From a virus: a DNA stretch of 41,726 nt. Location: IMG/VR virus record IMGVR_UViG_3300029267_001422, positions 1 through 41,726 of that record; one strand, written 5' to 3'. A program made the translations under genes and the position numbers. Every line of letters begins with the position of its first letter. Position 1 is the stretch's first letter. Below are positions 86 through 41,726 of this stretch, piece by piece. The notes under the pieces are model-generated. The model saw nothing but the letters and a program-made list of their open reading frames with translations, was not told where the DNA came from and did no database searches.

Positions 86-100
86 TCAGACTGCCACGCC

Positions 101-137: not shown

Positions 138-165
138 CCCGGGGCGGCTCGTGACGCGCCCCGGG
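138..165 (+). other. Stem-loop overlapping the first ribosome binding site
   Basis: CCCGGGGCG (138-146) pairs perfectly with CGCCCCGGG (157-165), loop of 10 bases. The 3' arm runs into the G-rich Shine-Dalgarno stretch (about 163-172) of the gene starting at 178, so it could end upstream transcripts or limit ribosome access. The regulatory role is inference. Confidence 0.45.
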
Positions 166-177
166 GAGGGGGATGAG

Positions 178-507: not shown

Positions 508-508
508 G

Positions 509-5881: not shown

Positions 5882-6149
5882 GAGACTGTCCAAGAGGATA
5901 AGTGAACATGCGCGTGCGCCTTGGACCCCGCGCCGCCCCTCCCGCCGGCGTCGCGGCGGCGACCGACCGACCCAGAACCCGGACACCCAAGGCGTCGATG
6001 CTCACCCAAGGGTCCATCCGGACCCCCCACATGTTGTGGTCACCCCCCTCCAGGCACGACGATAACGAGACCGGAGTTGAGACAATGAGTAATGGCAATG
6101 GGTTACGTCATGTCACGACGCAACAGAACAATCATTATCGGACCCAACC
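5882..6149 (+). other. Intergenic region with small hairpins
   Basis: This stretch of 268 bp has no well-supported gene. A weak frame from ATG 5908 to 6153 (81 codons) has ordinary codons at first and A/T-ending codons at the end, so I doubt it is translated. GGGTCC (6010-6015) pairs with GGACCC (6020-6025), and CCACA pairs with TGTGG at 6028-6040. The last 90 bases are clearly richer in A/T than the flanks, as expected of a control region before the gene at 6150. Confidence 0.5.
6110..6138 (+). promoter_or_regulatory. Weak sigma70-like promoter candidate
   Basis: ATGTCA (6110-6115) and CATTAT (6133-6138) are 17 bases apart, each matching consensus at 4 of 6 positions, in the A/T-richer part of the gap. 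Transcription would start near 6145, a few bases before the GTG at 6150, which has no Shine-Dalgarno sequence. Low confidence. Confidence 0.25.
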
Positions 6150-7309: not shown

Positions 7310-7915
7310 ATGTCGCCCACCCTCACCAATCCGGTCCCCGAGCATCCCCGGACCCTCGTCAACCCACCTCCCCGCGATCAGCGTCTCCCTGACGGCCGGT
7401 GGCGATGGGACGGCCCCCCGGAGGGCATGCGTGCGCTGGCGTACGAGTTCGCGCGCCGCGTGCTGAAGGGGGAATGGTCCAAGGACCCCCGCGCTGGCCG
7501 GATCGTCCGGATGAGCACGCTCTGCCGAGCGGTGGATCTCCCTGAGAACCAGTACGAGGTCTGGCGAGACCGGTATGACAGCGGCAAGGACCACCCGTTC
7601 CGCGATGCCTGGCTCGAGCAGATCCGGTACGTCCGTGAGCACCACGCGAGCGCGATGGAGCTGGTGGCGGACAAGGTAGGTCTCGGGGCCGGCACGGACG
7701 AGGAGATCAAGGGCGCGACCGACCGGTGGAAGGTGCTGGAGCAGCTCGGGCGATTCACGCCCTCGAGCAAGCTGCAGCTCACGGCAGAGCGGAGCGGGTC
7801 GGACACCCAGGTCGAGTTGTTCGAGGCGTTCCTCGCGGATCACCCGAAGACGGCACGGCAGTTCGACCGCTGGCTCGCCGAGCGGTACGCCAAGGACGCG
7901 AGCGGTGCTGCCTAG
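7310..7915 (+). CDS. Putative terminase small subunit
   Basis: A 201-residue protein directly before, and overlapping by 11 bases, the large terminase gene. The first 40 residues are Pro-rich; an internal ATG at 7427 follows GGAGG closely and could be the true start. From there the chain is helical with a possible helix-turn-helix (STLCRAVDLPENQYEVWRDRY) and a charged C-terminal half, as in small terminase subunits that recognise packaging DNA. The assignment rests on position, size and HTH-like look rather than a clear family motif. Confidence 0.6.
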   Translation: MSPTLTNPVPEHPRTLVNPPPRDQRLPDGRWRWDGPPEGMRALAYEFARRVLKGEWSKDPRAGRIVRMSTLCRAVDLPENQYEVWRDRYDSGKDHPFRDAWLEQIRYVREHHASAMELVADKVGLGAGTDEEIKGATDRWKVLEQLGRFTPSSKLQLTAERSGSDTQVELFEAFLADHPKTARQFDRWLAERYAKDASGAA

Positions 7916-9371: not shown

Positions 9372-11506
9372 TGCCGACAGCGACAGAGGACAGCATCTAC
9401 GGGCCGTCGGGTGCGCAGGCGCTCCAGCCGCTGCTCCCGTACCGGAACTACCTCTCCGACCTGTACCCCTACGCCCTGAGCTCGGTGTACCACGGCCATC
9501 GCCTGTGGGACCCGTCGTATGCGGACTCGCGGGACCCGGACCTCTGGGAGCGGATCCGCCGTGACCCGGTGGTCGCCGCGGCGTGCGAGATCCGGATGCA
9601 CTCGGTGGCGTCTCGGTTCTGGCGGGTGATCCCCGGTGGTCAGACGAGCATGGACGAGGGGGCCGCGTCCGTCGTCGAGGAGATGGTCCAGGGAATCGAG
9701 CGGTTCGCGCAGAGTCGGTACGAGCTCGCCGGCGCCGTCCTCACCGCACGATCGTTCGCGTACATCGAGGGCGACCGTCAGTTCGGCGCGTACGGCGGCC
9801 GGTTCGCGCGGTGGTGGGTTCCGACGAAGATCACGGACATCGACCGCCGGCGGATCCATCACGCGCCGGTCTGGTCGACGGAGCCGGATGGACGGCGCAC
9901 GCTCCGCACGCAGATGATGCTCTGGTCCGTGACCGAGAACGCGTGGCGACCGATTCAGGACCTGAGGCCCTTCGTCCGGCACATCTACAACGACGAGGAG
10001 GCTCGGCTCGGCTACGGGCGGGGCTTGATCGAGGCGGTCTACTTCTACTGGTACGCGAAGACGATCGCGCTCCAGAAGGGGCTCCGTGGTCTCGAACGCT
10101 GGGCCGAGGGTGGGTTCGCCGTCGGGGTGGACGGCCTGAAGGCCGCGAGCACGACGAAAGACAACGACACGATCGTTGCTGCGTGGAAGGACGCTTGGAA
10201 AGCGTGGTTCTCGCACTACCTCCTGGTCCACGACAAGGCCGACGAGCTGAAGCCGGTCCCGGGGCCGAGCGAGGGCCATCAGATGGTCCACGAGTGGCTC
10301 CGCTACCTCGACGACGCGATCACGCGCCTGATCCTTGGGTCCGTGCTCCCGTCCGGCGGGGCGTCCGAGCAGGGCTCGCTCGCACGGGCCGAGGTCGAGG
10401 AGGACACGACCGAGAGCCTGATCCAGTACGACCGGATCCTGCTCGACGACACCCTGACGCGGGACCTCGTCGGCTGCATCTGGTTCCAGAACCGGCAGCT
10501 GTTCTTGGAGATGTTCCCCGGGGCCAAGATGCCGAAGTTCTCCTCGGTCCAGGAGAAGAGGAGCGACCCGACCGAAGCGGCGCAGGTCGTCGCGACCCTC
10601 CACGGGGCCGGGATCGCACTGCGCGAGGACGAGGTCTACGAACGCACGGGATTCACGGCGCCGGGGCCCGAGGACAAGGTGCTCGCCGGGGCCGCTCCGG
10701 GCGCCGGCCTCGACGCACTGTTCCCCAGGCAGGTGGGAACGAAGGGGATGGGCGGCGAGGGGGGGGCTCCGGCGCAGTCATTGCGCATGACCCACGACGG
10801 TGACAGCGTCGTCCTTCTTGGTGCCGACGGATCCGATCGGGCAATCTTCGACATTCGTGAGCGCTGCCCGGATGGAACCGTGATGCCGAAAGACGGAGAT
10901 TGCTCGGATCATGGTCCGGCCAAGGACGATCCCTCAGGGGCCAAGCCCCCCGAGACGAAAGAGAAGAAAGAGAAGAAAGGCAAGGACAGCGTCCCCACGC
11001 GCCCACAGGGACAGTCCGCCGAACTCTGGGCCAAGAATGAGGAAGTCGCAGCGTCACGGATGGGGGCAGCGCGACCTTCCAAGTCGCTCATGGACGTCTA
11101 CCAGACCGCCGTGCGGACGAAGGACATGTCCATCGAGGAGATCGTGTACGGAGACGAGGTCCCTGAGTGGATATGGGACTCCCCTGTGTTCAGAACGGCC
11201 TTCGAGTCGGGAAGAAACGGGGACCCGATGCTCACCTACGTCTCTGGGTGGCGGTACGGGGACATTCCCGAGAGCGGGTATTCCTACAACTACCGGGAAC
11301 AACAGCTCGAGCCAGGATTGAGCCTCATGGCGCTCACGGGAGAGCCTCCGGTCAAGTCACTGATGACCGGAGTGCAAGGGCGCCCGATTCGGTGGGTTGA
11401 GGGTTGGCTGATCCCTGAGCCCGGTGGCGAGGGGGAGCCTCTGATCGTGGGCGCGAAATACGTCGAGGGAATACAGGGCGAGCATGCCCCAGAGGAAAGC
11501 GAATGA
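9371..11506 (+). CDS. Portal protein, Mu gp29-like (DUF935), with a C-terminal extension
   Basis: A 711-residue protein whose ATG overlaps the terminase stop by one base. Residues of about 30-460 follow the DUF935 pattern: SRDPDLWERIRRDPVVAAA near 54-72, the YGRGL region near 217, and a helical C-terminal crown. The portal forms the ring through which DNA enters. From about residue 465 an extra region of 240 residues begins: a Cys-containing stretch, a Lys/Glu-rich linker (ETKEKKEKKGK), and a Trp/Tyr-rich globular piece (GWRYGDIPESGYSYNY, RWVEGWLIPEPGG). Portals of this family usually end near 450-520 residues. The added domain is unlike anything I recognise and uses more A/T-rich codons, so it may be an acquired cargo domain. 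Confidence 0.88.
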   Translation: MPTATEDSIYGPSGAQALQPLLPYRNYLSDLYPYALSSVYHGHRLWDPSYADSRDPDLWERIRRDPVVAAACEIRMHSVASRFWRVIPGGQTSMDEGAASVVEEMVQGIERFAQSRYELAGAVLTARSFAYIEGDRQFGAYGGRFARWWVPTKITDIDRRRIHHAPVWSTEPDGRRTLRTQMMLWSVTENAWRPIQDLRPFVRHIYNDEEARLGYGRGLIEAVYFYWYAKTIALQKGLRGLERWAEGGFAVGVDGLKAASTTKDNDTIVAAWKDAWKAWFSHYLLVHDKADELKPVPGPSEGHQMVHEWLRYLDDAITRLILGSVLPSGGASEQGSLARAEVEEDTTESLIQYDRILLDDTLTRDLVGCIWFQNRQLFLEMFPGAKMPKFSSVQEKRSDPTEAAQVVATLHGAGIALREDEVYERTGFTAPGPEDKVLAGAAPGAGLDALFPRQVGTKGMGGEGGAPAQSLRMTHDGDSVVLLGADGSDRAIFDIRERCPDGTVMPKDGDCSDHGPAKDDPSGAKPPETKEKKEKKGKDSVPTRPQGQSAELWAKNEEVAASRMGAARPSKSLMDVYQTAVRTKDMSIEEIVYGDEVPEWIWDSPVFRTAFESGRNGDPMLTYVSGWRYGDIPESGYSYNYREQQLEPGLSLMALTGEPPVKSLMTGVQGRPIRWVEGWLIPEPGGEGEPLIVGAKYVEGIQGEHAPEESE

Positions 11507-11835
11507 ACTGGCGCACAGGCATCATCCAGGGCATCGGCTTCTGCGCATTCATCGTCGAGGACGAACTCCCCGACACGATTCATGTCCGCAACGTCACGAT
11601 CCCGCAGCCCGTCCAGGATCGACAGGGCCGGGCGGGCATCGCGTGGTCCCCGTGGTGGCCGGAGCAGCTCGAGTACGCGCTGACGCCGGTGACCGTGATC
11701 CGGGACCACATCTTCGCGCTCGCCGACGCCGGAGAGAAAGCCGTCGCGAAGGCCGAAGAGGCCTGGGGGATGCGGAAGATCCAGGTCCCCTCGCCGCAGG
11801 GCGTCGTCATCCCCGGAGGCAACGGAGCCCGGTGA
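11503..11835 (+). CDS. Hypothetical protein between portal and minor head protein
   Basis: A 110-residue protein, ATG overlapping the portal stop (ATGA). Trp-rich in the middle (IAWSPWWPEQLEYAL), then a helix with many Ala and Glu. Could be a small head accessory factor judging by position. No motif recognised, no membrane segment. Its stop overlaps the GTG of the next gene. Confidence 0.6.
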   Translation: MNWRTGIIQGIGFCAFIVEDELPDTIHVRNVTIPQPVQDRQGRAGIAWSPWWPEQLEYALTPVTVIRDHIFALADAGEKAVAKAEEAWGMRKIQVPSPQGVVIPGGNGAR

Positions 11836-12692
11836 ACAGCGACGCACTCCAGGAGTTGCTCGAGCAGAACACGACGCAGGTCGTGTTCGCGATGCGGATG
11901 CTCGGCCGGGCGATTGCGGACGGGTCCGTCGACGGCCGGAACGAGGGTCTCGGGACGCTCACGGACGCGCTGACAAAGATCATGGGGCAGGCGGACTACG
12001 CCGGCCGGGAGGCGGTCGCGGCCGGTCACGGGTTCACCGTCGGTGGAGGTCGCGCTTCTGTCGGTGGTGCTGGCGGAGGTGGGCCTGGTGGTGGAGGTCC
12101 GACGATCCTCGCCCCGGGAGCAGGTACCCCTGGCCGCGGCCAACCGACGATGCTCGACCAGATCATGGCCCGGTACAAGGCATGGCACGCGCCGACCCTG
12201 GCCCGGGACGCCTCCGGCCAGATCGAGCAGAGGATCCGTCAGAGCTTCGACGAGGGCCGGGATTCGACGCTCGCGGTGCTCGAGGACGTGAACCACTGGA
12301 CGGTGTCCTACGCGGACACGGTCTACCGGACGAACGTGGCCTCGGCCTACGCCGCCGGGGCCTGGCAGCAGAGCCTCGACCCGGACATCCTCGAGATCAT
12401 CCCGGCGAAGCTCTACTCCGCCATCGGGGACAGCGACACGCGGCCGAATCACCAGGCCGCCGACGGGCTCATTGCCGGTGTGATGGATCCGATCTGGGAG
12501 ACGTACTCGCCCCCGATGGGGTTCCGGTGCCGGTGCTCGCTCCTCGATGTCGATCGCTTCGAGCTCGAGGATCGCGGGCTTCTGAATCCAGACGGGAGTG
12601 TGACGCGCGTCCTACCGAGGAACTTCGCGAAGGCCCACCCGGACCCGGGATTCGGCACCGGACGGCCGGACCGTCGCGTCTACGGGAGATGA
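11832..12692 (+). CDS. Minor head protein, Mu F-like (SPP1 gp7 type)
   Basis: A 286-residue protein from a GTG overlapping the previous stop; the open frame upstream to 11484 is a shadow. A Gly-rich linker (about residues 72-95) separates a helical N-terminal part from the head-protein domain. The signature is near the end: DSDTRPNHQAADG, then PPMGFRCRCSLLDVD, the Cys/His-bearing motif typical of Mu F/SPP1 gp7 proteins. Such proteins sit near the portal and assist DNA entry or head assembly. At 286 residues it is shorter than Mu F itself. Confidence 0.85.
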   Translation: MNSDALQELLEQNTTQVVFAMRMLGRAIADGSVDGRNEGLGTLTDALTKIMGQADYAGREAVAAGHGFTVGGGRASVGGAGGGGPGGGGPTILAPGAGTPGRGQPTMLDQIMARYKAWHAPTLARDASGQIEQRIRQSFDEGRDSTLAVLEDVNHWTVSYADTVYRTNVASAYAAGAWQQSLDPDILEIIPAKLYSAIGDSDTRPNHQAADGLIAGVMDPIWETYSPPMGFRCRCSLLDVDRFELEDRGLLNPDGSVTRVLPRNFAKAHPDPGFGTGRPDRRVYGR

Positions 12693-12694
12693 CC

Positions 12695-12895
12695 ATGAGC
12701 TTCAACGCAGGAACGTTCTATGGCGGAAAGGCGTACCGAACCCGGTGCGGCCAGTTCGTCGTCCAGGGAATGACGGTGCTCCGGGCCGACCGACGCGACA
12801 AGACGCCCGTCAGCGAGTGGGAAGCCAAGGCCGCCCGCGGGGAGCGCGATGCCGCGATGCGGGCGAGCGCGAGGGGCGCGCCGAAGAACCGGTGA
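12695..12895 (+). CDS. Hypothetical small basic protein
   Basis: A 66-residue protein. ATG 12695 has GGGAG at good spacing; ATG 12689, two codons earlier and overlapping the previous stop, is the alternative. The chain has a small beta-rich start (FNAGTFYGGKAYRTRCGQFVVQGM) and a charged helical end. I recognise no family. Confidence 0.55.
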   Translation: MSFNAGTFYGGKAYRTRCGQFVVQGMTVLRADRRDKTPVSEWEAKAARGERDAAMRASARGAPKNR

Positions 12896-13065
12896 GACGA
12901 CACCGGACCCATCGCAGAGTCATGCGTCCAGCGCGCGGCCCCTGGGGGTGCGTGGCGTGGCTCCTGGTCCTCGCACTCATCCCCGCCGCACTGTTCGGGC
13001 TGTGGGTGCTCGCGCTTCTGATCCTGTCGGCGATTGGAGTCGGAATGGGGGCCACATGTACGTGA
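12892..13065 (+). CDS. Small membrane protein
   Basis: A 57-residue protein with a GTG start overlapping the previous stop (ATG at 12922 is an alternative). After an Arg/His-rich leader comes a long hydrophobic stretch of about 36 residues (CVAWLLVLALIPAALFGLW, then VLALLILSAIGVG) with a Pro in the middle, enough for one long or two short membrane segments. The positive N-terminus would stay inside. It overlaps the glycosyltransferase gene that follows, so it might anchor or assist it; a holin role is possible but the location is unusual for one. Confidence 0.5.
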   Translation: MRRHRTHRRVMRPARGPWGCVAWLLVLALIPAALFGLWVLALLILSAIGVGMGATCT

Positions 13066-14285
13066 TCGTCCCACACGTCGGCAAAAGCCACCTCACGCTC
13101 CAGTGCCTCGAGTCGATCCCGGATCGGCACCACCCGATCCTCGTCGATGCGAGCTACGTGGCGGATCTCGACGTCTACGCCGAGAACCACGCGCGACGGA
13201 TGACGTACGTCCGGCCCGAACGCGTCCCGCAGTGTCTCGCCGCGAACTGGAACCTTGGGGCAGAGCACGTACCCGAGGCTGAACACGTCTGGCTCTTCGC
13301 CGCGAGCGATGTCCAGTTCTACCGTGAGTCCTGGGTTCGGCTTCGCGATCTGCTCCGGTGCTTCCCGGATGCCGGGATCATCCGCGATCACGCCACGAAC
13401 TGGAACGTGTTCGCGATGCGACGCTGGGCGTGGAATCTACTCCGGCCCATGGACGAGCGGTATCAGCCGTGCGGGGGCGAGGACGACGACCTGGTGATGA
13501 AGTGCCACCACTCCGGGATCCGGATCAAGTCCGGGTGGATCGGGGTGAATCACCTGGAGGGTGGCCATGCGACCAGGCTCGATATCCGTCGGGAACTCGC
13601 CGGAACGACGTGGGACGGGCGCCACAGAAACATCGCCGTGTTCCAGAGGAAGTGGGGCTGCGTCCCGAGTCTTCGGAGCGATCCGAAGTATCAGGCGGCT
13701 CACGCCGAGGTTCACATCGAGGGGCGCCGGAAAGAGCCGCCGGCGGAGTGGAGCGGGCATTCGATCCCTAGGAGCCGCAAGCCGTGGCCAGAGAAGACGT
13801 GGCCACTGCCGCTTCAGATCCACATCGGTTGTGGACGCAAGCCCGCAAAGGACCGTGTGAACACAGATGTTGATCCGAGGGCGAAGGCCGACGTGATCTT
13901 CGACGCGGCCAGAGACGAGTGGCCATTCGAGGACGACAGCGCGGTGCTCGTCGAGGCCTATCACGTTCTCGAACACATGAGCCGCGAGGAGGGCAGGACG
14001 TTCCTGGCCAAGGCTCATCGCGCGCTCAAGACCGGCGGCCAGATCACGCTCGAGTGCCCCGACCTCGGGGCCGTCTGTGCGAAGTTCCCAGGGTCCCAAC
14101 GCCGCATGAGCTGGAGCCTCTATGGGGACCAGAGCACACCGTGGCGTTTTCACCGATGGGGCTACTCGCGCGAGACGATCAGGCTCGCGCTCGAACGTGC
14201 CGGCTTCCGGGGTGTCGAGGTCGGCGACGGCACGGACTATCACGCGGCGAGTGAGCCGTGCTGGAGAGCGGAGGCGAAGAAGTGA
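13056..14285 (+). CDS. Glycosyltransferase-methyltransferase fusion (GT first)
   Basis: A 409-residue predicted bifunctional enzyme. ATG 13056 lies inside the end of the membrane-protein gene. Residues 1-220: GT-A-like glycosyltransferase with VIVPHVGKSHLTLQCLESI at the start, NWNLGAEH near 64 and an Asp motif FAASDVQF (Asp85) as sugar-nucleotide/metal site; a GGEDDDL acidic motif follows near 148. Residues of about 253-405: class I SAM-dependent methyltransferase with IHIGCGRKP (256-264), a conserved VLEHMSREE and ALKTGGQITLECPDL. The expected chemistry is sugar transfer followed by methylation, on an unknown acceptor. It lies amid head genes together with the mirror-ordered fusion that follows. 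Confidence 0.75.
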   Translation: MYVIVPHVGKSHLTLQCLESIPDRHHPILVDASYVADLDVYAENHARRMTYVRPERVPQCLAANWNLGAEHVPEAEHVWLFAASDVQFYRESWVRLRDLLRCFPDAGIIRDHATNWNVFAMRRWAWNLLRPMDERYQPCGGEDDDLVMKCHHSGIRIKSGWIGVNHLEGGHATRLDIRRELAGTTWDGRHRNIAVFQRKWGCVPSLRSDPKYQAAHAEVHIEGRRKEPPAEWSGHSIPRSRKPWPEKTWPLPLQIHIGCGRKPAKDRVNTDVDPRAKADVIFDAARDEWPFEDDSAVLVEAYHVLEHMSREEGRTFLAKAHRALKTGGQITLECPDLGAVCAKFPGSQRRMSWSLYGDQSTPWRFHRWGYSRETIRLALERAGFRGVEVGDGTDYHAASEPCWRAEAKK

Positions 14286-15940
14286 TCGAGTACGACCGCG
14301 ACGGCAACGTGAACACCGCAGAGTTCTGGGACGCAGCCTGGCGAAGAACGCCAGAGGACGGTGCGAACAAGGACGGGGTCCGAAGGGAGGTTCTCCGCCG
14401 GCTCGAGGCGCTCCCTGCGGCTCGCGTTTGGGAGTACGGGTTCGGCGGACTTCACCTTGCCCGCGCGCTCGGCGCGGATCGATGGCACGGGGTCGATCAC
14501 TCGAAGGTCGCCGTCGCGGCGGCAAAGGACGAGGGGTTCATCGCAGAAGTCGGACGGTGCGCGGACAGTCCGGGGTTCGTGAAGTCCTACCTCGTGGCGC
14601 TCGAAGTCCTCGAGCACCTGGACGCGAATGAGATGGTCGCGTTCCTCGAGGCGAGCCGTCGCGCCCCTCACGCGTTCTTCTCCGTCCCCGGCCCGAGGAT
14701 CCCCGACAAGCACTTCGGCCAGCATATGCGTGGATGGGACGGGCCGGAAGACCTCGAGCAATTCCTTCGGCAGTGGTGGCCGCACGTCGAGGTGACGCCC
14801 GTCGACGCCTACCTACTGGCGCATTGCCGAAAGGTTCCGCCTGCACGAGAACCGATTCTCACGGTCGGATGCTCGACGCTGCTGGACTTCCACGGGTTCC
14901 TTTACACGGCGGCCTCGTGGATGACGCACCACGGGACGTTCGATGGTCGAGTCGAGTACCTACTCGCCGACAATCATCCCGAGCCTACGGCGAGGCTCCG
15001 CGGGTGCCCGGAGTGCTCGAGGCTCAAGACGCCCGGCGAACGCTGCGCCTCCTGCGCGAAGGCCGTCGAGGACATGGAGGCTCTTGCCGACCAGAACGGA
15101 GTCCGGTACATCCGATGGGCCGAGAAGCAGGGGACCTATCCGGGAAAGAACCGCCTCAAGGTCGAGGCTCGCGGGAAGTGGGTTCTCACGATGGACTCCC
15201 ACGTCCTGCTCTCGCCTGCGACGATCGAGCGGTGCATCGAGTGGATCGAGGAGAACCCCGAGAGCGACGACTTCCACCACATCCCGTGTCTCTTCCGAAC
15301 CCAGAAGGGGGTCGCCTGCGCGATCGATTTCCGCAGGCAGGACTACATCTACCGGAATCGCAGCGGATCGAAGCAGTTCCCCGTCTACGGATGGACGCGC
15401 CAGGCCGAGACGGCCGGCGACCCCTACCCGATCGCCGCGATGATCACGAGCTGCTACCTAGTGCGCCGTGACGCCTGGTTCTCCGCCAAGGGCTACGACC
15501 CGATCCTCGGGAACTACGGGGGCTGGGAGGGACCGATCCAACTCAAGTGGTGGCTCATGGGGCGCCGCGTGCTGTCGATGCGGCACTCGCGTCAGGAAAT
15601 CATCGACCGGACCGGGTGGCTCCACCACTGGCACCTGTTCTGCAAGCCTGGAACGCGAATGGCCAACCAGACCGGCCGCGTCCACACGGGCCCGAGCAAG
15701 ATGCGGAACTTCGCCGCGTCGTCTGCGGTGATCGGGGGCGAGGCGTTCGTGCGCCAGCACTGCGCATGGAAGGGCTGGGACTTCAACCGCCCCGAGATCC
15801 AGGCCGGCATGGCTGAAGGGCTAAAGCTTCGCCCGTGGATGGTCTCCAAGCTTGCACGTCCGGAGTGGGAGGACATCTTCGAGTTCTTCCGCTGGATGCG
15901 TGACGAGAAGATCCCTGGCGCGATGACGGAGTGGTCGTGA
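14282..15940 (+). CDS. Methyltransferase-glycosyltransferase fusion (MT first)
   Basis: A 552-residue predicted enzyme from a GTG overlapping the previous stop, with GGAGG 7 bases upstream (ATG 14258 is an alternative). Residues 10-185: class I methyltransferase with VWEYGFGGLHLARAL, GVDHSKVAVAAAKDEG and ALEVLEHLD. From about 190: family-2-like glycosyltransferase (ILTVGCSTLLDFHGF, LLADNHPEP), an inserted four-Cys zinc site (Cys242, 245, 255, 258), the catalytic-site DSH (305-307) in WVLTMDSHVLL, and GGWEGPIQLKWW further on. Its domain order is the reverse of the preceding gene. Acceptor unknown; the Thr-Pro-rich virion proteins encoded just downstream are candidates. Confidence 0.75.
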   Translation: MIEYDRDGNVNTAEFWDAAWRRTPEDGANKDGVRREVLRRLEALPAARVWEYGFGGLHLARALGADRWHGVDHSKVAVAAAKDEGFIAEVGRCADSPGFVKSYLVALEVLEHLDANEMVAFLEASRRAPHAFFSVPGPRIPDKHFGQHMRGWDGPEDLEQFLRQWWPHVEVTPVDAYLLAHCRKVPPAREPILTVGCSTLLDFHGFLYTAASWMTHHGTFDGRVEYLLADNHPEPTARLRGCPECSRLKTPGERCASCAKAVEDMEALADQNGVRYIRWAEKQGTYPGKNRLKVEARGKWVLTMDSHVLLSPATIERCIEWIEENPESDDFHHIPCLFRTQKGVACAIDFRRQDYIYRNRSGSKQFPVYGWTRQAETAGDPYPIAAMITSCYLVRRDAWFSAKGYDPILGNYGGWEGPIQLKWWLMGRRVLSMRHSRQEIIDRTGWLHHWHLFCKPGTRMANQTGRVHTGPSKMRNFAASSAVIGGEAFVRQHCAWKGWDFNRPEIQAGMAEGLKLRPWMVSKLARPEWEDIFEFFRWMRDEKIPGAMTEWS

Positions 15941-16083
15941 TTTGCGCATGCACCACCCGGTATTGCGACGGCTGCGGCCGGACGACGAAGCACGTCTCGG
16001 CGGGCGCCGACCGCTGTCAGTGCGTGGAGTGCGGGCGGGAAGTCCTCACGACGGACTGTGAGATGCGAAAGGAGCCGATCTGA
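15937..16083 (+). CDS. 48-residue zinc-ribbon protein
   Basis: A very short gene with a GTG overlapping the previous stop and a TGA that overlaps the next ATG (TGATG). It has 8 Cys in 48 residues: Cys3, 5, 10, 13 (YCDGCG), 27, 29, 32 (CQCVECG) and 41. The two CxxC knuckles can form one or two zinc sites. Tight coupling on both sides and high G/C third positions support translation. Function unknown; it may accompany the glycosyltransferases, one of which also holds a four-Cys site. Confidence 0.65.
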   Translation: MICACTTRYCDGCGRTTKHVSAGADRCQCVECGREVLTTDCEMRKEPI

Positions 16084-16529
16084 TGGCCGTCCTGCAGATC
16101 CGGCTCGAGAACCGGGCGCGCAAGGGCTACCAGCCCGAGCAGGGCTACCTCCGCGGCATGGTCCTCCGGGTCCATCCGGACAGCTACCGTCCCCAGGCCC
16201 GCATGTCGCGCCGCTCGTTCGGCTGGATCCGCGTCCCGGACCTGACGCGGGCGCAGGAGGCCGAGCTGCTGGAGCCGGATTACGGGAGCAACCCGATCCC
16301 GGTCGACCCCGGCGATGACCCGAACTGGGCTGCGATCGAGCCGGACCGCCCACGCAAGGTGATCCTCGACCTGAGCAAGCTCCGCGCCGAGCTCCCGACC
16401 CTCCAGCGGACCCGCCACGACCTCGCGGTTACTTGGGGCGAGGACCAGATCGAGCACGTCGAGGCGTCGGCGACGGCGATCTCGCGGTCTCGGGTGTCCG
16501 CGTCCATTGCGTCGGACCTGGTGCGCTGA
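16083..16529 (+). CDS. Hypothetical virion-region protein
   Basis: A 148-residue protein, ATG overlapping the previous stop. The first 60 residues are Arg/Tyr-rich and beta-like ([22 protein letters not shown]), followed by a DPGDDPNW loop and a helical C-terminal half ([13 protein letters not shown]). No recognised family. TGATG coupling to the stalk protein that follows suggests co-expression with virion proteins. Confidence 0.6.
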
Positions 16530-18142
16530 TGGCGATCACGACCAACCACGCGCGTGGCTGGTACACCATCGCAGCGGGCGAGGATTACGACGACCTGTTC
16601 GACTTCGCCGATGACTTCGGGACGCAGACCGAGGACATCATCGGGAAGATCGTCGCCGACGAGGATGTTGGCGGCACGGCAGCCAATTTCGACCACGACG
16701 CGGCCGGCCACAACTACACCGTCACGGTCGACTCGGCAAGCCGCTACCCAACGTCGTCTTCGTGGCCCGGGAATCTCGAATCTGCCAGTGACTATGCCCG
16801 ATTTAACGGGGCAATTCTTGGTCTCAAGGAGCCCGGCGGGATCGTCGAGTGGATTGTCTTCGACAACGCCGGGAAGATCCTCGACTGGGGCGGGTCGGTC
16901 GTGCGGAACTGCGTCCTCATCGACGCCGGCGCGACTCACGCCGTCCAGAGGGCCAACATTGCGGGCGGGGTCTCCTACTACCACAACCTCTACATCTACG
17001 GGGCGGTCTACGGGATCTGGTCGCAGGGCGCAAGCGGTACGTTCCAGGGCAACCACATCTCGATGTTGTGCGGGAATAACGGTGGGATCCACGCGGAGGC
17101 CGCCAATACCCGGTGCGAGCACTGCGCATCTTTGGCCACTGCGACCGAGGACTGCTGGAGCACTGGCGGGTCGGGGTCCTTCGTCGGCGACTACAATCTG
17201 TCGAGTCAGAGCACCGACTCGGACATGCCGGGTGCGCACAGCGTGGCAAACGTCGCGGCGGCGGACTACTTCGAAAACGTCACCGCCGGCAGCGAGGATC
17301 TCCACAAGAAGGCCGCGCTCGACGGTTCGTACGAGGGCGACAGCGGGGCGAGCTTCGGCACCGGGTGGCCGGGCGACGACATCGACGGCGACACCCGCTC
17401 GGACTACGACATCGGGGCGGACGAGATTGTTGGTGGGACCCCGACCCCGACTCCGACCCCGACTCCGACGCCAACCCCGACGCCGCGCACGCCCACGCCC
17501 ACGCCGACCGCAACGCCGACGCCGACCCCGACGCCGACGCCCCGGACTCCGACGCCAACGCCCACAGCCACCCCGACGCCGACGCCAACGCCAACGCCGA
17601 GAACGCCTACACCGACTCCGACCCCTACACCTCGGACCCCGACGCCGAGCCCCACCCCGACCCCGACTCCCAGGACGCCGACGCCGACGCCGACGCCGAG
17701 AACCCCGACCCCGACGCCCACGGCCACCCCCACCCCCACCCCGACTCCTCGAACGCCTACACCTACGCCGACAGGGACCGTCACCCCGACGCCGAGCCCG
17801 ACACCGACGCCTCGGACACCAACCCCGACTCCGACGGCGACTCCTTCGCCCACCCCGACGCCTACACCAAGGACGCCGACACCCACGCCGACCCCAACCC
17901 CGAGGACGCCGACCCCGACGCCACGAACCCCCACGCCGACGCCAACGCCGCGGACTCCAACCCCCACCGCGACCCCGACACCGACCCCCACACCAACGCC
18001 CAGAACTCCGACTCCGACGCCGACCCCAACTCCGACGCCGACACCAGTCGGAGAACCGATCATCGAGTTGCGCGTGTACGGCCCGCCGGTGCTCCCCGTC
18101 ACGAGCTACAGGACGCCGTTGAAGGTGGGAACCGGGCTGTAA
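16529..18142 (+). CDS. Beta-helix surface protein with a long Thr-Pro stalk
   Basis: A 537-residue protein. Residues 1-300 look like a right-handed parallel beta-helix of the kind seen in choice-of-anchor/pectate-lyase-like surface proteins: repeated short strands ([28 protein letters not shown]) and a terminal [10 protein letters not shown] motif. Residues 304-506 are almost pure Thr-Pro, broken regularly by Arg and Ala ([14 protein letters not shown]). The last 31 residues are ordinary again and may be an anchor or cap. The region resembles stalk linkers of secreted bacterial proteins. Placement in the virion block suggests a spike or head/tail surface fibre. Thr-rich stalks are classical O-glycan acceptors; glycosylation here is inference. 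Confidence 0.7.
17438..18046 (+). repeat. Degenerate Thr-Pro codon repeat (203 codons)
   Basis: A 609-bp in-frame array of ACN-CCN codon pairs, mainly ACG/ACC and CCG/CCC, broken by CGC/AGG/CGG (Arg) and GCN (Ala) codons every 7-18 residues. Synonymous third positions vary, so the array is old or selected at protein level rather than a fresh slippage product. All other frames are open too, which explains spurious frames here. Confidence 0.95.
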
Positions 18143-18225
18143 GGTGGTCTTGGCAAGTTTGTCAGTTCTGAAAACCCGTGCGACGGTGGATACCTAGAGA
18201 CGCACAGCAAAGGACGACGCACAGC
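18143..18225 (+). other. Short intergenic gap
   Basis: A gap of 83 bases between two virion genes. A TTGTCA at 18059-like register (18159-18164) resembles a -35 box but no -10 element sits at a workable distance, so I do not call a promoter. AAAGGA at 18209-18214 serves the ATG at 18226. Confidence 0.4.
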
Positions 18226-18615
18226 ATGACAACGATCGGGCCATGGCAGGTCGAGGAGGAGATCGCGATCAAGACCGCGACGGTCCTCGCGATCTTCGTT
18301 GCCAGCGATCGGGCTCGCCGCACCGCGGTGAATCTCGATGGGAAGGTCGTCACCCTCAGAATCCAGGGTGGGGCGTCCGTCGCCGCGAAGACCTACACCG
18401 CGGCGAATCGCACGCAGACCGGCTCGAACATCGGCTGGTGCGACGTCACGCTCAACGAGACCTACCACACAGAGACGGGCGACTTCGAGGCCAAGGTCTT
18501 CGTCGATCCCGGCTCCGGGAAGCCCGTGAACTACACGCCCCCGTGGCGCCTGACGTTCGTCGACGACCTGCTCCAGACCCCAACCCCCACGCCAACCCCC
18601 ACGCCAACCCCGTGA
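18226..18615 (+). CDS. BppU-like beta-sandwich protein with Thr-Pro tail
   Basis: A 129-residue protein; ATG 18226 follows AAAGGA, though a GTG at 18178 keeps the same frame. Residues 20-115 read as an Ig-like sandwich similar to the N-terminal domain of phage baseplate upper proteins: VVTLRIQGGASV, a central turn with TGSNIGWCDVTL, TGDFEAKVFVDPGSG, and a closing WRLTFVDD strand. Residues 118-129 are a pure Thr-Pro tail. In BppU proteins this fold serves as an attachment module. Here it precedes the protease gene, so it may be a capsid-decorating protein. Confidence 0.6.
   Translation: MTTIGPWQVEEEIAIKTATVLAIFVASDRARRTAVNLDGKVVTLRIQGGASVAAKTYTAANRTQTGSNIGWCDVTLNETYHTETGDFEAKVFVDPGSGKPVNYTPPWRLTFVDDLLQTPTPTPTPTPTP
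18577..18612 (+). repeat. C-terminal Thr-Pro tail, 12 residues
   Basis: Six ACC/ACG-CCA/CCC/CCG pairs end the protein immediately before TGA. Compare 17438-18046, 20380-20418 and 23355-23384. Confidence 0.9.
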
Positions 18616-18622
18616 GGCGACC

Positions 18623-19896
18623 ATGAGAGGCTACCGCGCCACCCAGCAGCCGGACGGGACCTGGACGATTCACGACGTCCCCGTCATGGCCGAGGTGCGC
18701 GACGGCGAGCGCGCGAAGGGTAGGTCCGTGGATCGCGACTGGCTCGAGGGGGCCGTGGCGAAGGCGAGGGCCCGCGCCGACCAGGACGGCTACATCGCTC
18801 CGACGCATGTCCACCATCACGACGATGGCGTTCCCACCGAGCGCGCCGGCCACCTCGTACCGAGGGCCGTGCGCCGCATGCCGTACGAGGGGCGGGACCG
18901 TTGGACGCTCTTCGCCGATATGACGGACATCCCCCAGGTGATCTACGACCGGATTCGGGCGGGAGACCTCCCGTACCGATCCGTCGAATTCGAATGGAGC
19001 ACCCCCGAAGTCCTCTCGCTGGCGCTCATGCCGGACGAGGTGCCGTTCTTCCGTTTCGGCCTCCTTCGCATCGCGGAGGAGCAGCCGCGCGACCCAGAGA
19101 CAGCTCCGCAACGGTTGCCGGAGCAATGTGCGCCGGCGGTGGCAATGCTCACCGCAGGGACTGCCGAGCGAGCCCTATTCCGATTCCAGGAGGGTAGTAT
19201 GCCCATGGAGCAGGAAGGGACCACGACCATCCCCGAGCAGGGGGCCCCGAGCGGTTTCGAGGAGAAGGTTCTCGAGGCACTCGCCGCCATCCTGCAGGCG
19301 GTCACCGGCGGCGGACAGCAACTGGCCGACGACGGTGACGAGGCGCCCAAGGAGGAGATGGCCGAGGAGAAGGACGAGAAGGAGGAGATGGCCTGCGAGG
19401 ACAAGCCCGACGCCATGAAGGCGGCGCCGGACGAGTCCGGGCAGACCATCGCCAAGCTCTCGGCCGAGGTAGCGGGCCTGAAGCACCGACTCACGCTTCG
19501 CGAGAAGCGCGAGGAGCATGCCCAGCTCGCCTCCAAGGCGAAGGCCGCTCTCAAGGAGTGGCCTCTGTCCGAGTCCGACGAGGCGGACATCGAGAAGTTC
19601 GCCGCGAAGGGCAAGGCCGATCTCGACATCTTCGTCGAGGCGTACAAGCGCAACGTGCCGAAGGACCCGCCCAAGGACTTCGACGCGTTCCAGGCCCGCG
19701 CGAAGCTCGAGGACACCGAGGTGGTGATGAAGTTCGCCGCCAAGGGACCCGACCAACTCGACGCGGCCCGCAAGGCGTCGGCTCTGTTCCGGAGGATGCG
19801 CGACGTTCCCGGCTTCAAGGTCGACGAGGAGACGTTCATCAACGACCAGGTGGAGCGGATGCATAACTCCGCCAACGGGCGTGAGGAGGTGCTCCG

Positions 19897-19900
<4 letters not shown>
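18623..19900 (+). CDS. Capsid maturation protease-scaffold (Mu I-like)
   Basis: A 425-residue protein. The first 180 residues match the pattern of Mu I-type head proteases: MAEVRDGERAKGRSVDRDWL, a His/Asp cluster (APTHVHHHDDG near 59-69), an AGHLV strand, and a RSVEFEW motif near 118. From about 195 the chain becomes acidic and helical (EEMAEEKDEKEEMA, AEVAGLKHRLTLREKREEH), the usual look of an internal scaffold. In Mu the scaffold is also produced as a shorter product from an internal start; the in-frame ATG at 19200 could do the same here. It lies directly before decoration and major capsid genes. Confidence 0.75.
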
Positions 19901-20421
<521 letters not shown>

Positions 20422-20436
20422 GAAAGGAGACCTTAG

Positions 20437-21432
20437 ATGCCCACCAATCCAGTGGTCGTCGACAGTGGCCTCCTCATTCCGGGGCTGCTCACGACCTTCA
20501 GCGACGCTTACAAGATGCGGTACAAGAAGGTGGCCGCCCGCATGGGCTCCGTCATGGAGCTTGGCGTCCCCTCGACCCACCGGACCGAGTACTACGGCGC
20601 CTTCAACAGCGCCCCGTACCCGAGACGCTGGGACCGCGGCACCACGGCCGTCCGCAAGGCCTTCGGGTCGTTCGGATGGACCACGACGAACCTCGTCTGG
20701 CAGAACGGCGTGGAGTGGTTCGAGGAGGATCTCGACGACGAGCAGACGAGGACGCTCTTCGGGCAGGCTCAGGCCGCCGGAGAGAACTTCGCGACGCTCC
20801 ACGAGCGGATCTTCTACCAGATGCTCGGTGCCCTCACGGACGCCGACCTCCTGGAGTCCGTCCCCAACGCAGCCGACGGTTCCGCGATCTTCGCGGCCAG
20901 CCGCTTCGGCACGACCGCGGGGAACATCGTCTCCGGAAACGGTGTCGCCACGGCGGCGGCCGTCCGGGGTGACTTCTGGACCGCGGTGGAGTACCCGCGG
21001 CTCTTCCAGGACACCGAGGGCCAGCCGCTCTGGGACGAGGACATCCTCGGCGACACCATCACCGTGACCTACAACGCCGACAACGAGGAGGTGTTCCGGG
21101 AGGCGTTCCTCCAGGGCCGCACCCTCGAGTCGGTGGGCACCGCGGGGACCGACCTCGCCGCCACGGCGGTCACGAACACCATTCGCGAGTCCGGGCTGAA
21201 CATCCAGCTCTGGCCGACGCAGCGCATCGGGGACAACGACTGGTTCGTCGTCTTCGGCGCCGCGCCGCACAAGCCCATCTACCAGCAGTCTCGCCAGGCG
21301 CTCCGCGAGGTGATCGCCACCCCGCAGAACTCCGACGAGTGCCGATCCGAGCGCAAGAACTACATCCAGTGGGACGCGCGCTTCGGCTACGGCGCCACCG
21401 TGCCGTACCAGATGGTGAAGGTGAACAACTAG
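20437..21432 (+). CDS. Major capsid protein, Mu T-like
   Basis: A 331-residue protein preceded by AAAGGAGACCTTAG, one of the best ribosome binding sites here. It matches the Mu gpT major head subunit family: FGWTTTNLVWQNGVEWFEEDLDD-type N-terminal segment near 83-100, TLHERIFYQML near 124, FREAFLQGRTLES near 221, and a YGATVPYQMVKV C-terminal strand. Length is close to Mu T (about 305). It forms the icosahedral shell with an HK97-like fold. A strong hairpin just after the stop may protect or end its message. Confidence 0.88.
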   Translation: MPTNPVVVDSGLLIPGLLTTFSDAYKMRYKKVAARMGSVMELGVPSTHRTEYYGAFNSAPYPRRWDRGTTAVRKAFGSFGWTTTNLVWQNGVEWFEEDLDDEQTRTLFGQAQAAGENFATLHERIFYQMLGALTDADLLESVPNAADGSAIFAASRFGTTAGNIVSGNGVATAAAVRGDFWTAVEYPRLFQDTEGQPLWDEDILGDTITVTYNADNEEVFREAFLQGRTLESVGTAGTDLAATAVTNTIRESGLNIQLWPTQRIGDNDWFVVFGAAPHKPIYQQSRQALREVIATPQNSDECRSERKNYIQWDARFGYGATVPYQMVKVNN

Positions 21433-33737: not shown

Positions 33738-33748
33738 GCGACCTCGAC

Positions 33749-33766
33749 CCGCGGGCACTCCCGCGG
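33749..33766 (+). terminator. Short hairpin after the lysis cassette
   Basis: CCGCGGG (33749-33755) pairs with CCCGCGG (33760-33766), loop CACT. It is the first of two tandem hairpins behind the last late gene. Confidence 0.65.
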
Positions 33767-33778
33767 ATTCTCTCCTCC

Positions 33779-33818
33779 GGGCCCCCGCTCTACTGAGGGC
33801 GGGGGCCCAATCTTTTTT
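33779..33818 (+). terminator. Strong intrinsic terminator of the late operon
   Basis: GGGCCCCCGC (33779-33788) pairs with GCGGGGGCCC (33799-33808); inner pairs extend it to about 13 bp with loop ACTG. AATCTTTTTT follows at 33809-33818, a clear U-tract. This is the only classical rho-independent terminator I see in the genome, and it ends the virion/lysis transcript. Confidence 0.93.
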
Positions 33819-33877
33819 CGGAATCCCGGCAAGCGGAGCGATCCCTTTTTCCAATTTTCTCACTTGCGCGGATTCCG
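33819..33877. promoter_or_regulatory. 15-bp inverted repeat, candidate operator
   Basis: Arms 33819-33833 (CGGAATCCCGGCAAG) and 33863-33877 (CTTGCGCGGATTCCG) are reverse complements with 13 of 15 matches, 29 bases apart. The spacer holds a T-rich stretch. The right arm overlaps the candidate -35 box of the promoter for the ribbon-helix-helix gene, so it could be its autoregulatory operator. Confidence 0.6.
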
Positions 33878-33892
33878 ATCATGTCGTATCGT
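33864..33892 (+). promoter_or_regulatory. Promoter candidate with leaderless start
   Basis: TTGCGC (33864-33869) and TATCGT (33887-33892) are spaced by 17 bases. TATCGT fits the TANNNT -10 pattern of high-GC bacteria. Initiation 7 bases after the -10 would fall on the A of ATG 33899, giving a leaderless message, which agrees with the absence of a Shine-Dalgarno sequence. Confidence 0.45.
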
Positions 33893-35921: not shown

Positions 35922-35939
35922 CTTTCCTTGGGGGATGAG

Positions 35940-36183
35940 ATGCGAGCAGAGAAGCCGCCCCGCCGCCCGACGTTCGCCGACCTCGCCACCGTGCGCGTGG
36001 TCGGGTCCACGCTGGTGCTGCTGCCCGCCGGGCCGGTGCGGCGCCGCCCGGCTCCGCGAGGAGAACGAGGACCTCCGCCGCCGGCTGGACGCGCTGACGC
36101 ACGGGCGCATCGGCTCTCCGCGGGTGGTTGCCGAGGTGGCCCGGCGGACGCTCGCGAAGGTCCGGGCGCGGAGGGCGTCATGA
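35940..36183 (+). CDS. Small coiled-coil protein with a +1 frame break
   Basis: From ATG 35940 (after GGGGGATGAG) the frame reads about 36 sensible residues (MRAEKPPRRPTFADLATVRV onward) and then degrades into Arg/Pro/Gly-rich sequence. Shifting +1 between about 36036 and 36054 yields a normal coiled-coil end (LREENEDLRRRLDAL, VAEVARRTLAKV) that stops at 36183, overlapping the next ATG by ATGA as genes here do. Third-position G/C switches frame at the same place. So the gene is about 80 residues, interrupted by an indel or a programmed +1 shift. Function unknown. Confidence 0.55.
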
Positions 36184-39425: not shown

Positions 39426-41297
39426 ATGAAGGTCACCCGCCTCCACCTCGCCCGCTTCCTCGGCTACGAGGACCTCGAGATCCACCTGGCCGAGCGCATC
39501 AGCATCTTCGTCGGCCCGAACGGCGCCGGGAAGTCGAGCATCCTCGACGGCATCCGCGTGGCGCTCACCGGCACCGTCGCCGGCGTCGCCCGCAAGGACG
39601 CCGCGCAGCTCCAGTACCTCGGCAAGGGCAAGCCCTGGGCCGTCGAGCTCGACCTCGGCGAGCGCACCATCCGCAGGACCGCGACGACGCTCTCCGTTAT
39701 GGAGGACGACCGCGCCGTGAAGCTGAACCAGACAGACCTCGACAGCTGGGTCCGCGACCGCGCCGCACTGGCCGCGCTGCTGGATGTCGGCCACGCGCTC
39801 CGCATGACGCCGGCCGAGCGGCAGGACCTCGTCTTCCGCCTCGCGGGGATCTCCGTGACTGCCGAGGACCTCGAGGCCCGGGGGCTCCGCAACCCCGCCA
39901 TCCGCGACCACGCGCTCCGCGGCAACTGGAAGAGGGCCGAGAGCGAAGCGGCCGAGCGCAAGCGGGCCGCCGGCCGCGAGCTCTCCGACCTCATGATCGT
40001 CCCGCCTCAGGATCGGGAGGTCGCGCTCACGAAGCCGACTCCTCTCTCCGCGATCGACGACGAGACGCTCCGCAAGATGCGCGGCCGCGTCGCCGACCTC
40101 GAGAACAAGGAGCGCGAGATCGAGCGCGAGATCGGGCGGCTCGAGGGTCGAACCGCCGCGTCCACCGACGGCCTCGAGGAGCGGCTCGCCGAGGTCCGGG
40201 CGCAGATCGCGAGCCTCGAGGAGCGCGACCCGGCGCGGGAGCACGCCGCGGTCGTCGCCCGGATCGGCACGGGCCGCAAGGTGCTCACCGAGGCCCGGGA
40301 GGCGACCGCCAAGCTCGAGCAGCAGCAGCGCGAGATCGAGGACGCCTCCCGGGCCGCCGGCGAGGAGATCAAGCGCCTGCGGGGCGCCGGGACGAAGCAC
40401 GTCTGCTCGATCTGCGGGCTCGAGCACGAGGGCAAGGTCCAGACCGCGGCGATCGAGACGCTCCGGGAGGACATCACCGGGCTCGAGACGACCGCGGCCG
40501 AGCTCGCCGCGAAGATCCAGGAGGACCGAACTGCCGAGGCCGGGATCGTCGGCAAGCTCGAGAGCCTCAAGTCCGAGCGCGACCGGCTCGCGGCCGAGGA
40601 CGCCCGCGCTGTCGCGCTCCGCAAGGAGGCCGGCGAGATCGAGGCGCGCATGTCCGTCCCGCCCGTCGGCAAGGGCGAGATCACCGACCTCGAGGACACG
40701 CTCGCTGCAGTCCGCGAGAAGCTCGAGCGCGGCCGGGCGATCGTCCGGGAGGTCGACCAGTACCGCCAGGACGTGACCGCGTGGGAGAACGCCGTCCGGC
40801 GCCGCGAGAAGCTCGCCCGCGAGGTCGAGGACTTCCGGGTCATGGAGACCCGATGCCGCCCGGAGGGGGTCCGCGCGGAGCTGCTGGCGCCCGTCCTCGG
40901 GCCGATCCGCGAGCGGCTCGCGTCGTGGGCACCGCTCCTCGACGGCCTCGATGTGACGCTGACCGACGACTTCGAGGTCGAGGTCACGCGGCAGGGCCAC
41001 CCGATGCGGCTCTCCGGCTCGGAGGGATGGCGTGTGTCGATGGTGCTGGCGGACGCCCTCGCGCAGCTGTCGGCGCTGCGGTGGCTCTGCCTCGACGAGA
41101 TGAGTCTCCTGGACCCGGGCAACCGCAGGGCGGTCACGCGGCTGCTGGCGCGGCTCGAGGAGGACTACGACCAGGTGCTCATCTGCTCGGTGCTCGGTGA
41201 GGTGGAGCCGCGGCAGGCGCCGCCGGCGTCTGGGGTCCGCGTGTACCGCGTCGGGGACGGCCGGGCGGTCGCGATGGCGGATGCGGAGGCGGCATGA
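39426..41297 (+). CDS. SbcC/Rad50-like ATPase
   Basis: A 623-residue protein one base after recT. N-terminal ABC-type half with Walker A GPNGAGKSS (30-38, Lys36), Gln-loop region near 110-140, two long coiled-coil arms (about 205-320 and 340-470) flanking a Cys hook CSICG (Cys327, Cys330), signature LSGSEGW near 528-535, and Walker B RWLCLDEM (Asp557, Glu558). This is the SbcC/Rad50 plan, but shorter than the roughly 1,000-residue cellular SbcC. No Mre11/SbcD nuclease gene is present; the adjacent YqaJ nuclease may fill that place. Acts on DNA ends in recombination. Confidence 0.87.
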   Translation: MKVTRLHLARFLGYEDLEIHLAERISIFVGPNGAGKSSILDGIRVALTGTVAGVARKDAAQLQYLGKGKPWAVELDLGERTIRRTATTLSVMEDDRAVKLNQTDLDSWVRDRAALAALLDVGHALRMTPAERQDLVFRLAGISVTAEDLEARGLRNPAIRDHALRGNWKRAESEAAERKRAAGRELSDLMIVPPQDREVALTKPTPLSAIDDETLRKMRGRVADLENKEREIEREIGRLEGRTAASTDGLEERLAEVRAQIASLEERDPAREHAAVVARIGTGRKVLTEAREATAKLEQQQREIEDASRAAGEEIKRLRGAGTKHVCSICGLEHEGKVQTAAIETLREDITGLETTAAELAAKIQEDRTAEAGIVGKLESLKSERDRLAAEDARAVALRKEAGEIEARMSVPPVGKGEITDLEDTLAAVREKLERGRAIVREVDQYRQDVTAWENAVRRREKLAREVEDFRVMETRCRPEGVRAELLAPVLGPIRERLASWAPLLDGLDVTLTDDFEVEVTRQGHPMRLSGSEGWRVSMVLADALAQLSALRWLCLDEMSLLDPGNRRAVTRLLARLEEDYDQVLICSVLGEVEPRQAPPASGVRVYRVGDGRAVAMADAEAA

Positions 41298-41304
41298 ACA
41301 CGAC

Positions 41305-41332
41305 GGGCCCGGGGCCATCCCCCTCCGGGCCC
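41305..41332 (+). terminator. Stem-loop after the SbcC-like gene
   Basis: GGGCCCGG (41305-41312) pairs with CCGGGCCC (41325-41332), loop of 12. Position just after the last recombination gene suggests a terminator, but no U-tract follows. Confidence 0.5.
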
Positions 41333-41339
41333 ATCCCCC

Positions 41340-41363
41340 GAGGGGCGGCTCCGGTCGCCCCTC
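41340..41363 (+). terminator. Second stem-loop after the SbcC-like gene
   Basis: GAGGGGCG (41340-41347) pairs with CGCCCCTC (41356-41363); inner pairs can shorten the loop to TCCG. Tandem with the hairpin at 41305-41332. No U-tract. Confidence 0.5.
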
Positions 41364-41376
41364 ACCGAAACCGAGT

Positions 41377-41411
41377 CATCGTGGCTCTTCCGAAAGGTGG
41401 CACCCACGATG
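41377..41411. other. Stem-loop, 8-bp perfect stem
   Basis: CATCGTGG (41377-41384) pairs with CCACGATG (41404-41411) around a 19-base loop. Confidence 0.5.
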
Positions 41412-41417
41412 CTTCAC

Positions 41418-41433
41418 GCCCGGGAAACCGGGC
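41418..41433. other. GNRA-tetraloop hairpin
   Basis: GCCCGG (41418-41423), loop GAAA, CCGGGC (41428-41433). A 6-bp stem capped by GAAA is a typical stable RNA element and hints that this region acts as RNA. Confidence 0.6.
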
Positions 41434-41436
41434 ACT

Positions 41437-41500
41437 GCAGCCGATGGGGACAAACAAGCCATAATGAGGTTGAAACAGGTCCTCGAACCCCATCGGCTGC
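41437..41500. ncRNA. 13-bp perfect stem with 38-base loop, candidate structured RNA
   Basis: GCAGCCGATGGGG (41437-41449) pairs without mismatch with CCCCATCGGCTGC (41488-41500). The loop is A-rich (ACAAACAAGCCATAATGAGG onward) and contains a 4-bp GAGG/CCTC sub-stem. TGCTTCACGCC (41410-41420) and TGCTTCACACC (41498-41508) sit as direct repeats around it. I tested a tRNA reading: the 7-bp outer stem could pass as an acceptor, but no T-arm or anticodon arm can be drawn. An RNA element or a protein-binding cruciform is possible. Confidence 0.5.
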
Positions 41501-41516
41501 TTCACACCAAGAACCC

Positions 41517-41537
41517 GAGCGGGCGCGTGCCCCGCTC
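41517..41537. other. Stem-loop, 7-bp perfect stem
   Basis: GAGCGGG (41517-41523) pairs with CCCGCTC (41531-41537), loop CGCGTGC. Confidence 0.5.
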
Positions 41538-41569
41538 CGCCGTCCCGGTCGCGCGAGGCTACGGGCCAC

Positions 41570-41599
41570 GGCGGCGCGGTCCATTCCCGCCGCGCCGCC
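41570..41599. other. Stem-loop spanning the terminal-repeat boundary
   Basis: GGCGGCGCGG (41570-41579) pairs with CCGCGCCGCC (41590-41599), loop of 10. The terminal repeat begins at 41583, within the loop, so this hairpin is complete only at the right end or in the circular form. Confidence 0.6.
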
Positions 41600-41726
41600 A
41601 CTGGAACGCGAGGGCTTGGAGCCCCCGCAACGGCGGCCCGGTGCGCCCAGATCGTCCGCCGGGCCGCTCAGACTGCCACGCCCGCCGGACGGTCCGGTGA
41701 GGCCGCCGATACCGCAGGTCCCGGGG
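41583..41726. repeat. Terminal direct repeat, right copy
   Basis: Exact copy of bases 1-144. See the left copy; it joins the noncoding region to the start of the left operon. Confidence 0.97.

Follow-up and report, generated by a model that had tools for sequence, protein, structure and literature searches.

Tandem stem-loops at the circle junction of an uncultured phage genome suggest a plus-strand structured RNA that may act on ribosome-binding sites

The window analyzed here is the whole 41,726-nt stretch of an IMG/VR virus record. Its first 144 bases are the same as its last 144, which gives a circle of 41,582 bp; the segments 41298–41582 and 1–177 therefore form a single 462-nt gap between genes. 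The genome has a GC content of about 68% and carries nearly all of its genes on the + strand. The gap is preceded by a gene for an SbcC-like ATPase, which closes a recombination cluster with ParB-like and RecE/YqaJ exonuclease genes, and is followed by gene 178, for the product of which the family search returned no match (Table 1). No tRNA or tmRNA was detected in the window with ARAGORN.

Many uncultured phages possess the structural module of this phage (TerL, a Mu-type portal and the genes for head and tail), at roughly 30–50% protein identity. Protein searches with the SbcC-like ATPase, TerL, MCP and DnaB retrieved such distant phages with the common structural module and, besides them, one nearly identical sequence. 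This 16-kb fragment, IMGVR_UViG_3300017987_000521 (L127 / L309), has 99.98% identity to window positions 10437–20574 over the 10.1 kb compared and, judging from its sequence, is practically the same virus from a second sample; it is the sole close sequence found and stops short of the gap. The major head protein showed 47% identity to L189:10001–10990, on contig PBAZ01000025.1 of a Chloroflexi MAG. This gives a faint indication of the host group, since the contig itself may be a binned phage.

The original prediction held that the gap lacks a believable gene, and the codon use of the region is indeed non-coding. According to a codon-use score trained on the genes of the same phage, the gap upstream of gene 178 is negative or near zero throughout, in contrast to gene 178 itself (Table 1), and an upstream extension of that gene scored below the 1st percentile of gene pieces. 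Two open reading frames were also rejected as genes. The 56-aa frame at 41294, whose start codon shares an ATGA with the stop of the SbcC-like gene and which has a plausible SD (GGAGG) upstream, scored −0.18, below the 1st percentile of phage gene pieces; the 78-aa frame at 41464, with its start inside the H5 loop, scored −0.14, again below the 1st percentile. Over its first 34 codons, however, the 78-aa frame reached 0.12, a value found among the lowest-scoring true genes, and a short coding stretch within them is a borderline case.

Table 1. Hairpins, seeds, start motifs and flanking genes of the gap; positions are those of the window.
Feature	Positions	Strand	Description
SbcC-like ATPase gene	39426–41297	+	Gene before the gap; 623 aa; phrog_77 6.4e-29; Pfam AAA_23 1.1e-12
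H1	41305–41332	+	Perfect 8-bp stem (10 bp in the model fold); 8-nt apical loop CCAUCCCC, the first putative anti-RBS seed
Seed copy 1	41315–41323	+	CCATCCCCC; 41315–41322 unpaired with probability 0.86–1.0 (isolated RNA)
Seed copy 2	41331–41339	+	CCATCCCCC; 41333–41339 form the single-stranded H1–H2 linker
H2	41340–41363	+	Perfect 8-bp stem; cUCCGg tetraloop (UNCG class)
H3	41373–41415	+	Perfect 8-bp stem at 41377–41411, internal loop, inner cGAAAg tetraloop; then CTTCAC
H4	41418–41433	+	Perfect 6-bp stem; gGAAAc tetraloop
H5	41437–41500	+	Perfect 13-bp stem; 38-nt A-rich loop; then TTCAC
H6	41517–41537	+	Perfect 7-bp stem, low weight; 7-bp form absent from some model folds
H7	41570–41599	+	Perfect 10-bp stem over the circle junction (41570–17; 41599 = position 17)
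Rest of gap	1–177	+	Two perfect 9-bp stems (51–85, 138–165); structure near chance
GGGGGATGAGATG, copy 1	168–180	+	Start of gene 178; proposed cis target
Gene 178	178–507	+	First gene after the gap; 109 aa; codon score 0.56
GGGGGATGAGATG, copy 2	499–511	+	Start of gene 509–754; overlaps the stop of gene 178
GGGGGATGAGATG, copy 3	35930–35942	+	Start of ORF 35940 (uneven coding signal)

Nine perfect stems had been claimed across the gap, and all of them are present with zero mismatches (Table 1). They also exceed the frequency in dinucleotide shuffles, the check that had been named for them: the gap contains 7 perfect stems of 8 bp or longer that do not overlap, in comparison to 0.88 ± 0.87 in 400 shuffles, none of which reached 7. 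On the + strand, the fold has a z of −5.8 over 41298–41530 and of −6.2 over 41298–41726 (429 nt). The corresponding − strand values are −2.8 and −3.9, a strand difference that is by itself no proof of strand, since G-U pairing stabilizes the − strand shuffles. The claimed density of stems applies to 41298–41582, and mostly to 41298–41520, but does not extend over the whole gap. Taken alone, segment 1–177 is no more folded than its shuffles (P = 0.24 for the number of base pairs in stems and P = 0.045 for the number of stems with 8 bp or more; + strand fold z from −0.8 to +0.7), so the excess comes from 41298–41582. We place the real feature at about 41298–41582, with a core at 41298–41503. The sequence TGCTTCAC has just two copies in the genome, one at the 3′ end of stem H3 (41410–41417) and one at that of stem H5 (41498–41505).

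A genome-wide fold scan ranked the 160-nt segment at 41361 fifth of 1,040, behind the T-tract terminator region near 33.8 kb (on both strands), a tandem-repeat tract near 17.4 kb and a locus near 19.4 kb on the − strand. Seven relatives of similar genome size were checked for a large folded gap; a few of their gaps are moderately folded (z down to −4.8), and none was shown to be related.

Perfect stems are identical on both DNA strands and loops are not. The loops cUCCGg, cGAAAg and gGAAAc belong to tetraloop classes known to stabilize RNA hairpins. All three are found in the + strand fold of 41298–41530 (in H2, H3 and H4, respectively), where they make up three ultra-stable tetraloops; the − strand fold of this segment has none. 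Shuffled sequences contained 0.09 stable tetraloops on average, with three in 0 of 400. When the genome was scanned in 718 windows of 233 nt, 673 had no such tetraloop, 44 had one and a single window, the one in the gap, had three. The unpaired bases of the gap fold are A-rich (38% A, against 21% overall). These results, which are evidence from a single sequence, point to an RNA on the + strand. The original prediction of a structured RNA is supported by the excess of stems, the low-energy fold, the tetraloops on one strand and the absent coding signal, but its naming of the GOLLD and ROOL classes is not: there is no Rfam match beyond chance up to E 10, there are no tRNAs and the structure consists of simple hairpins in a row.

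Searches for relatives of the gap covered several collections. Rfam cmscan, at the gathering threshold and with E up to 10, gave nothing beyond chance. A DNA search of phage and plasmid records yielded no relative of the gap, the single weak match in the plasmid records (68 bases) lying inside a coding gene. Virus contigs, searched by protein anchoring and with region-specific DNA patterns, contained no homologous gap, and the pattern matches had no further similarity. A single-sequence covariance model matched just itself over 2.7 Mb of loci; over 100 genomes from the class of the Chloroflexi MAG it gave one match, which was rejected as a relative of the gap, being an ordinary terminator hairpin with similarity mainly to H2. 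Because the collections searched yielded no phage at an intermediate distance, the lack of relatives does not speak against a function. According to these searches, the putative RNA is an orphan with a candidate function, having no relative in Rfam, in phage and plasmid records or in virus contigs.

The 5′ part of the gap carries two C-rich seeds. The sequence CCAUCCCCC occurs twice in the genome, both times in this part of the gap, in the H1 loop and in the H1–H2 linker, and both seeds arise from a 16-nt tandem duplication at the 5′ end. Unpaired bases in the isolated RNA amount to 8 of the 9 for copy 1 and 7 of the 9 for copy 2 (probability 0.84–1.0). The seeds are complementary to GGGGGAUG, a part of the 13-mer GGGGGATGAGATG, of which the genome has exactly three copies (at 168, 499 and 35930), all at gene starts. 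Copy 1 with the next TCC makes an 11-nt complement to the ribosome-binding site (RBS) of gene 178. With 10-nt seeds, the starts of genes 178, 509 and 35940 ranked 1–3 among 44 by duplex energy (−17.4 to −18.2 kcal/mol), while 1% of the random background reached −14.9 kcal/mol or better. In a model fold of the full leader, the RBS of gene 178 pairs with either seed with a probability near 1. The hallmark of an anti-RBS RNA, here an unpaired CCAUCCCC(C) complementary to GGGGGAUG at genes 178, 509 and 35940, is present. Together, the seed pairing, the three top-ranked starts and the leader fold suggest an anti-RBS RNA with gene 178 as its target in cis and perhaps with genes 509 and 35940 as targets in trans.

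The statistics of seeds and targets (P 0.03–0.055, post hoc) are suggestive only. The chance of one CATCCCCC, a C-rich octamer, in the shuffled region is P 0.04–0.055, and that of the 11-nt match to gene 178 is P 0.03, both calculated post hoc. The second seed is a tandem duplication of the first and hence not independent evidence. The RBS of gene 178 has the 6th lowest accessibility of 44, occluded RBSs being frequent in this GC-rich genome. Duplexes calculated without constraints for the entire 5′ segment show no preference for genes 178, 509 and 35940. Neither analysis was specific for gene 178, and both weigh against the proposed mechanism. The seeds are also similar to a generic anti-G-rich-SD sequence. 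A search for a sigma-70-type promoter found none.

We interpret the gap as a structured RNA of the + strand, possibly an anti-RBS regulator, for which we infer transcription, pairing in vivo and an effect on translation. Due to the post hoc match, the duplicated seed, the common RBS occlusion and the unspecific duplexes of the whole segment, we give the anti-RBS model a probability of about one in three. According to this model, which is drawn from one sequence, the core would consist of five consecutive stem-loops (41298–41503) read from the + strand. The two C-rich copies of CCAUCCCCC, one in the H1 loop and one in the H1–H2 linker, would pair in cis with GGGGGAUG where the translation of gene 178 begins; genes 509 and 35940 could be bound at their starts as well, either in cis or, by a released RNA, in trans. 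Pairing at a start would block ribosome binding, and the tetraloop hairpins H2–H4 and the 13-bp stem of H5 may serve for stability or protein binding. It appears rather unlikely that a two-seed phage RNA of this kind coordinates the translation of at least three phage genes with an identical GGGGGAUGAGAUG start, which would be a phage-internal regulon under a previously unseen five-hairpin RNA. If real, the RNA would be an orphan class absent from Rfam, in an uncultured phage lineage with a widespread structural module, and its proposed seeds and the common start motif would provide a model, open to direct testing, in which a phage RNA controls the translation of genes of the same phage.

We rank the anti-RBS model level with a plain structured untranslated region that has no antisense role. 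Such a region would be a set of tandem hairpins ending the transcript of the SbcC gene and acting as a block to decay, as an RNase or protein site, or in attenuation before the next operon, and it would be an ordinary finding. The position of the gap directly after the last gene of the recombination cluster, with all genes in one direction, agrees with this explanation, as do the strongly folded + strand with its stable tetraloops and the resemblance of H2 to a terminator hairpin of a Chloroflexi-type genome. However, it leaves the match between seeds and targets unexplained, and the hairpins have no T-tract, while the same genome possesses a textbook T-tract terminator at 33779–33819. As GC-rich hairpins 3′ of a gene, those of the gap are similar to intrinsic terminators, but they differ in their number, in the conserved-looking A-rich linkers between them and in the lack of T-tracts, and the terminator at 33779 looks different. 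A T-tract terminator within the gap was rejected, with 0 sites combining a hairpin and a T-tract in 41200–41726.

A site acting at the DNA level (a replication origin, a recombination hot spot or a packaging site), in which the inverted repeats would be protein sites or extruded hairpins, is unlikely in our view. The 13-bp inverted repeat encloses a 40-mer that is among the most AT-rich in the genome and the neighboring SbcC-like protein is annotated as a subunit of a palindrome-specific nuclease, but stable tetraloops on one strand are a signature of RNA, iterons were looked for and not found, and there is no evident GC-skew switch at the junction. A pac or cos site is expected at or next to the terminase genes, whereas TerL (7905–9371) and the end of the gap are about 7.7 kb apart. 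The packaging or origin site of the original prediction received no positive evidence, with the terminase genes about 7 kb off. Much less probable than a DNA site is a new large ornate phage RNA akin to GOLLD or ROOL over the whole 462 nt: its length, its location in a phage and the z of −6.2 over 429 nt would fit, but the 3′ part (1–177) is at chance level, and the simple serial hairpins come with no tRNAs and no Rfam match. We give equally little credence to compositional noise, that is, chance stems in GC-rich non-coding DNA, or to an assembly artefact at the contig ends. The GC content of 70–79% over much of the gap and the near-chance state of 1–177 are in line with noise, and the contig ends do lie within hairpins; the dinucleotide shuffles, however, control for composition and still exclude chance for 41298–41520.

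Among known RNAs, GOLLD and ROOL are phage-encoded, large and ornate, and often lie near tRNAs (PMC12286853). The putative RNA of the gap shares with them a phage origin, a non-coding nature and strong folding (PMC12286853), but it is smaller, consists of simple hairpins in a linear order, has no tRNA neighbors and does not match their covariance models. The aSD-loop sRNAs of Rhizobiales (SmelA075/SmelA099), alongside which the related Rhodobacter RS0680a has been named, carry CCUCCUCCC loops (PMC3927594). A row of hairpins and a C-rich loop complementary to ribosome-binding sites are common to them and the gap (PMC3927594). In contrast, the seed of the gap is CCAUCCCC(C), found in one loop and one linker only; the RNA is phage-borne, its other hairpins are GNRA/UNCG-capped and no sequence relation was found. 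Instead of CCUCCUCCC in several hairpin loops, the gap has the loops CCAUCCCC, UCCG, GAAA, GAAA and an A-rich 38-mer. The 6C/B11 sRNA of mycobacteria has two C-rich hairpin loops (PMC10470900), and its similarity to the gap lies in C-rich single-stranded loops with a proposed pairing to G-tracts in 5′ UTRs near start codons (PMC10470900); the gap, however, has one C-rich loop (H1) and a C-rich linker. The 6C model was absent among the Rfam matches at E up to 10. By analogy, the RNA of the gap would act like the aSD-loop or 6C sRNAs, yet the lack of a 6C match and the different hairpin layout would make it a member of neither.

The description of the rest of the genome as packed with genes applies with the exception of further non-coding stretches at 5882–6149 and 33738–33880. 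The latter, which is equally well folded because of the T-tract terminator inside it, follows the structural genes and contains a textbook intrinsic terminator with 13-nt arms (33779–33808) and then a T-tract. A second inverted repeat, of 16 nt (33818–33878), adjoins gene 33881, the product of which has weak similarity to an Arc-like repressor, and the stretch is likely a site of transcription punctuation and control. The AT-rich non-coding segment 5882–6149 lies 5′ of a RuvC-like gene and is a candidate promoter or origin region. Inside gene 18623–19900, the segment 19361–19520 folds with unusual stability, above all on the − strand (z −5.8); a search there for inverted repeats of at least 10 nt found none. 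Several repeat tracts were also observed. A long degenerate tandem repeat of GACCCC/GACGCC units at 17437–18046 coincides with a strong local change in GC skew and is probably a repetitive protein segment. About eight GGGGTGCCCG units form an array at 5336–5418, near the end of the DnaB-like gene, and a short CCGACC array of 5.8 copies is located at 20383–20417.
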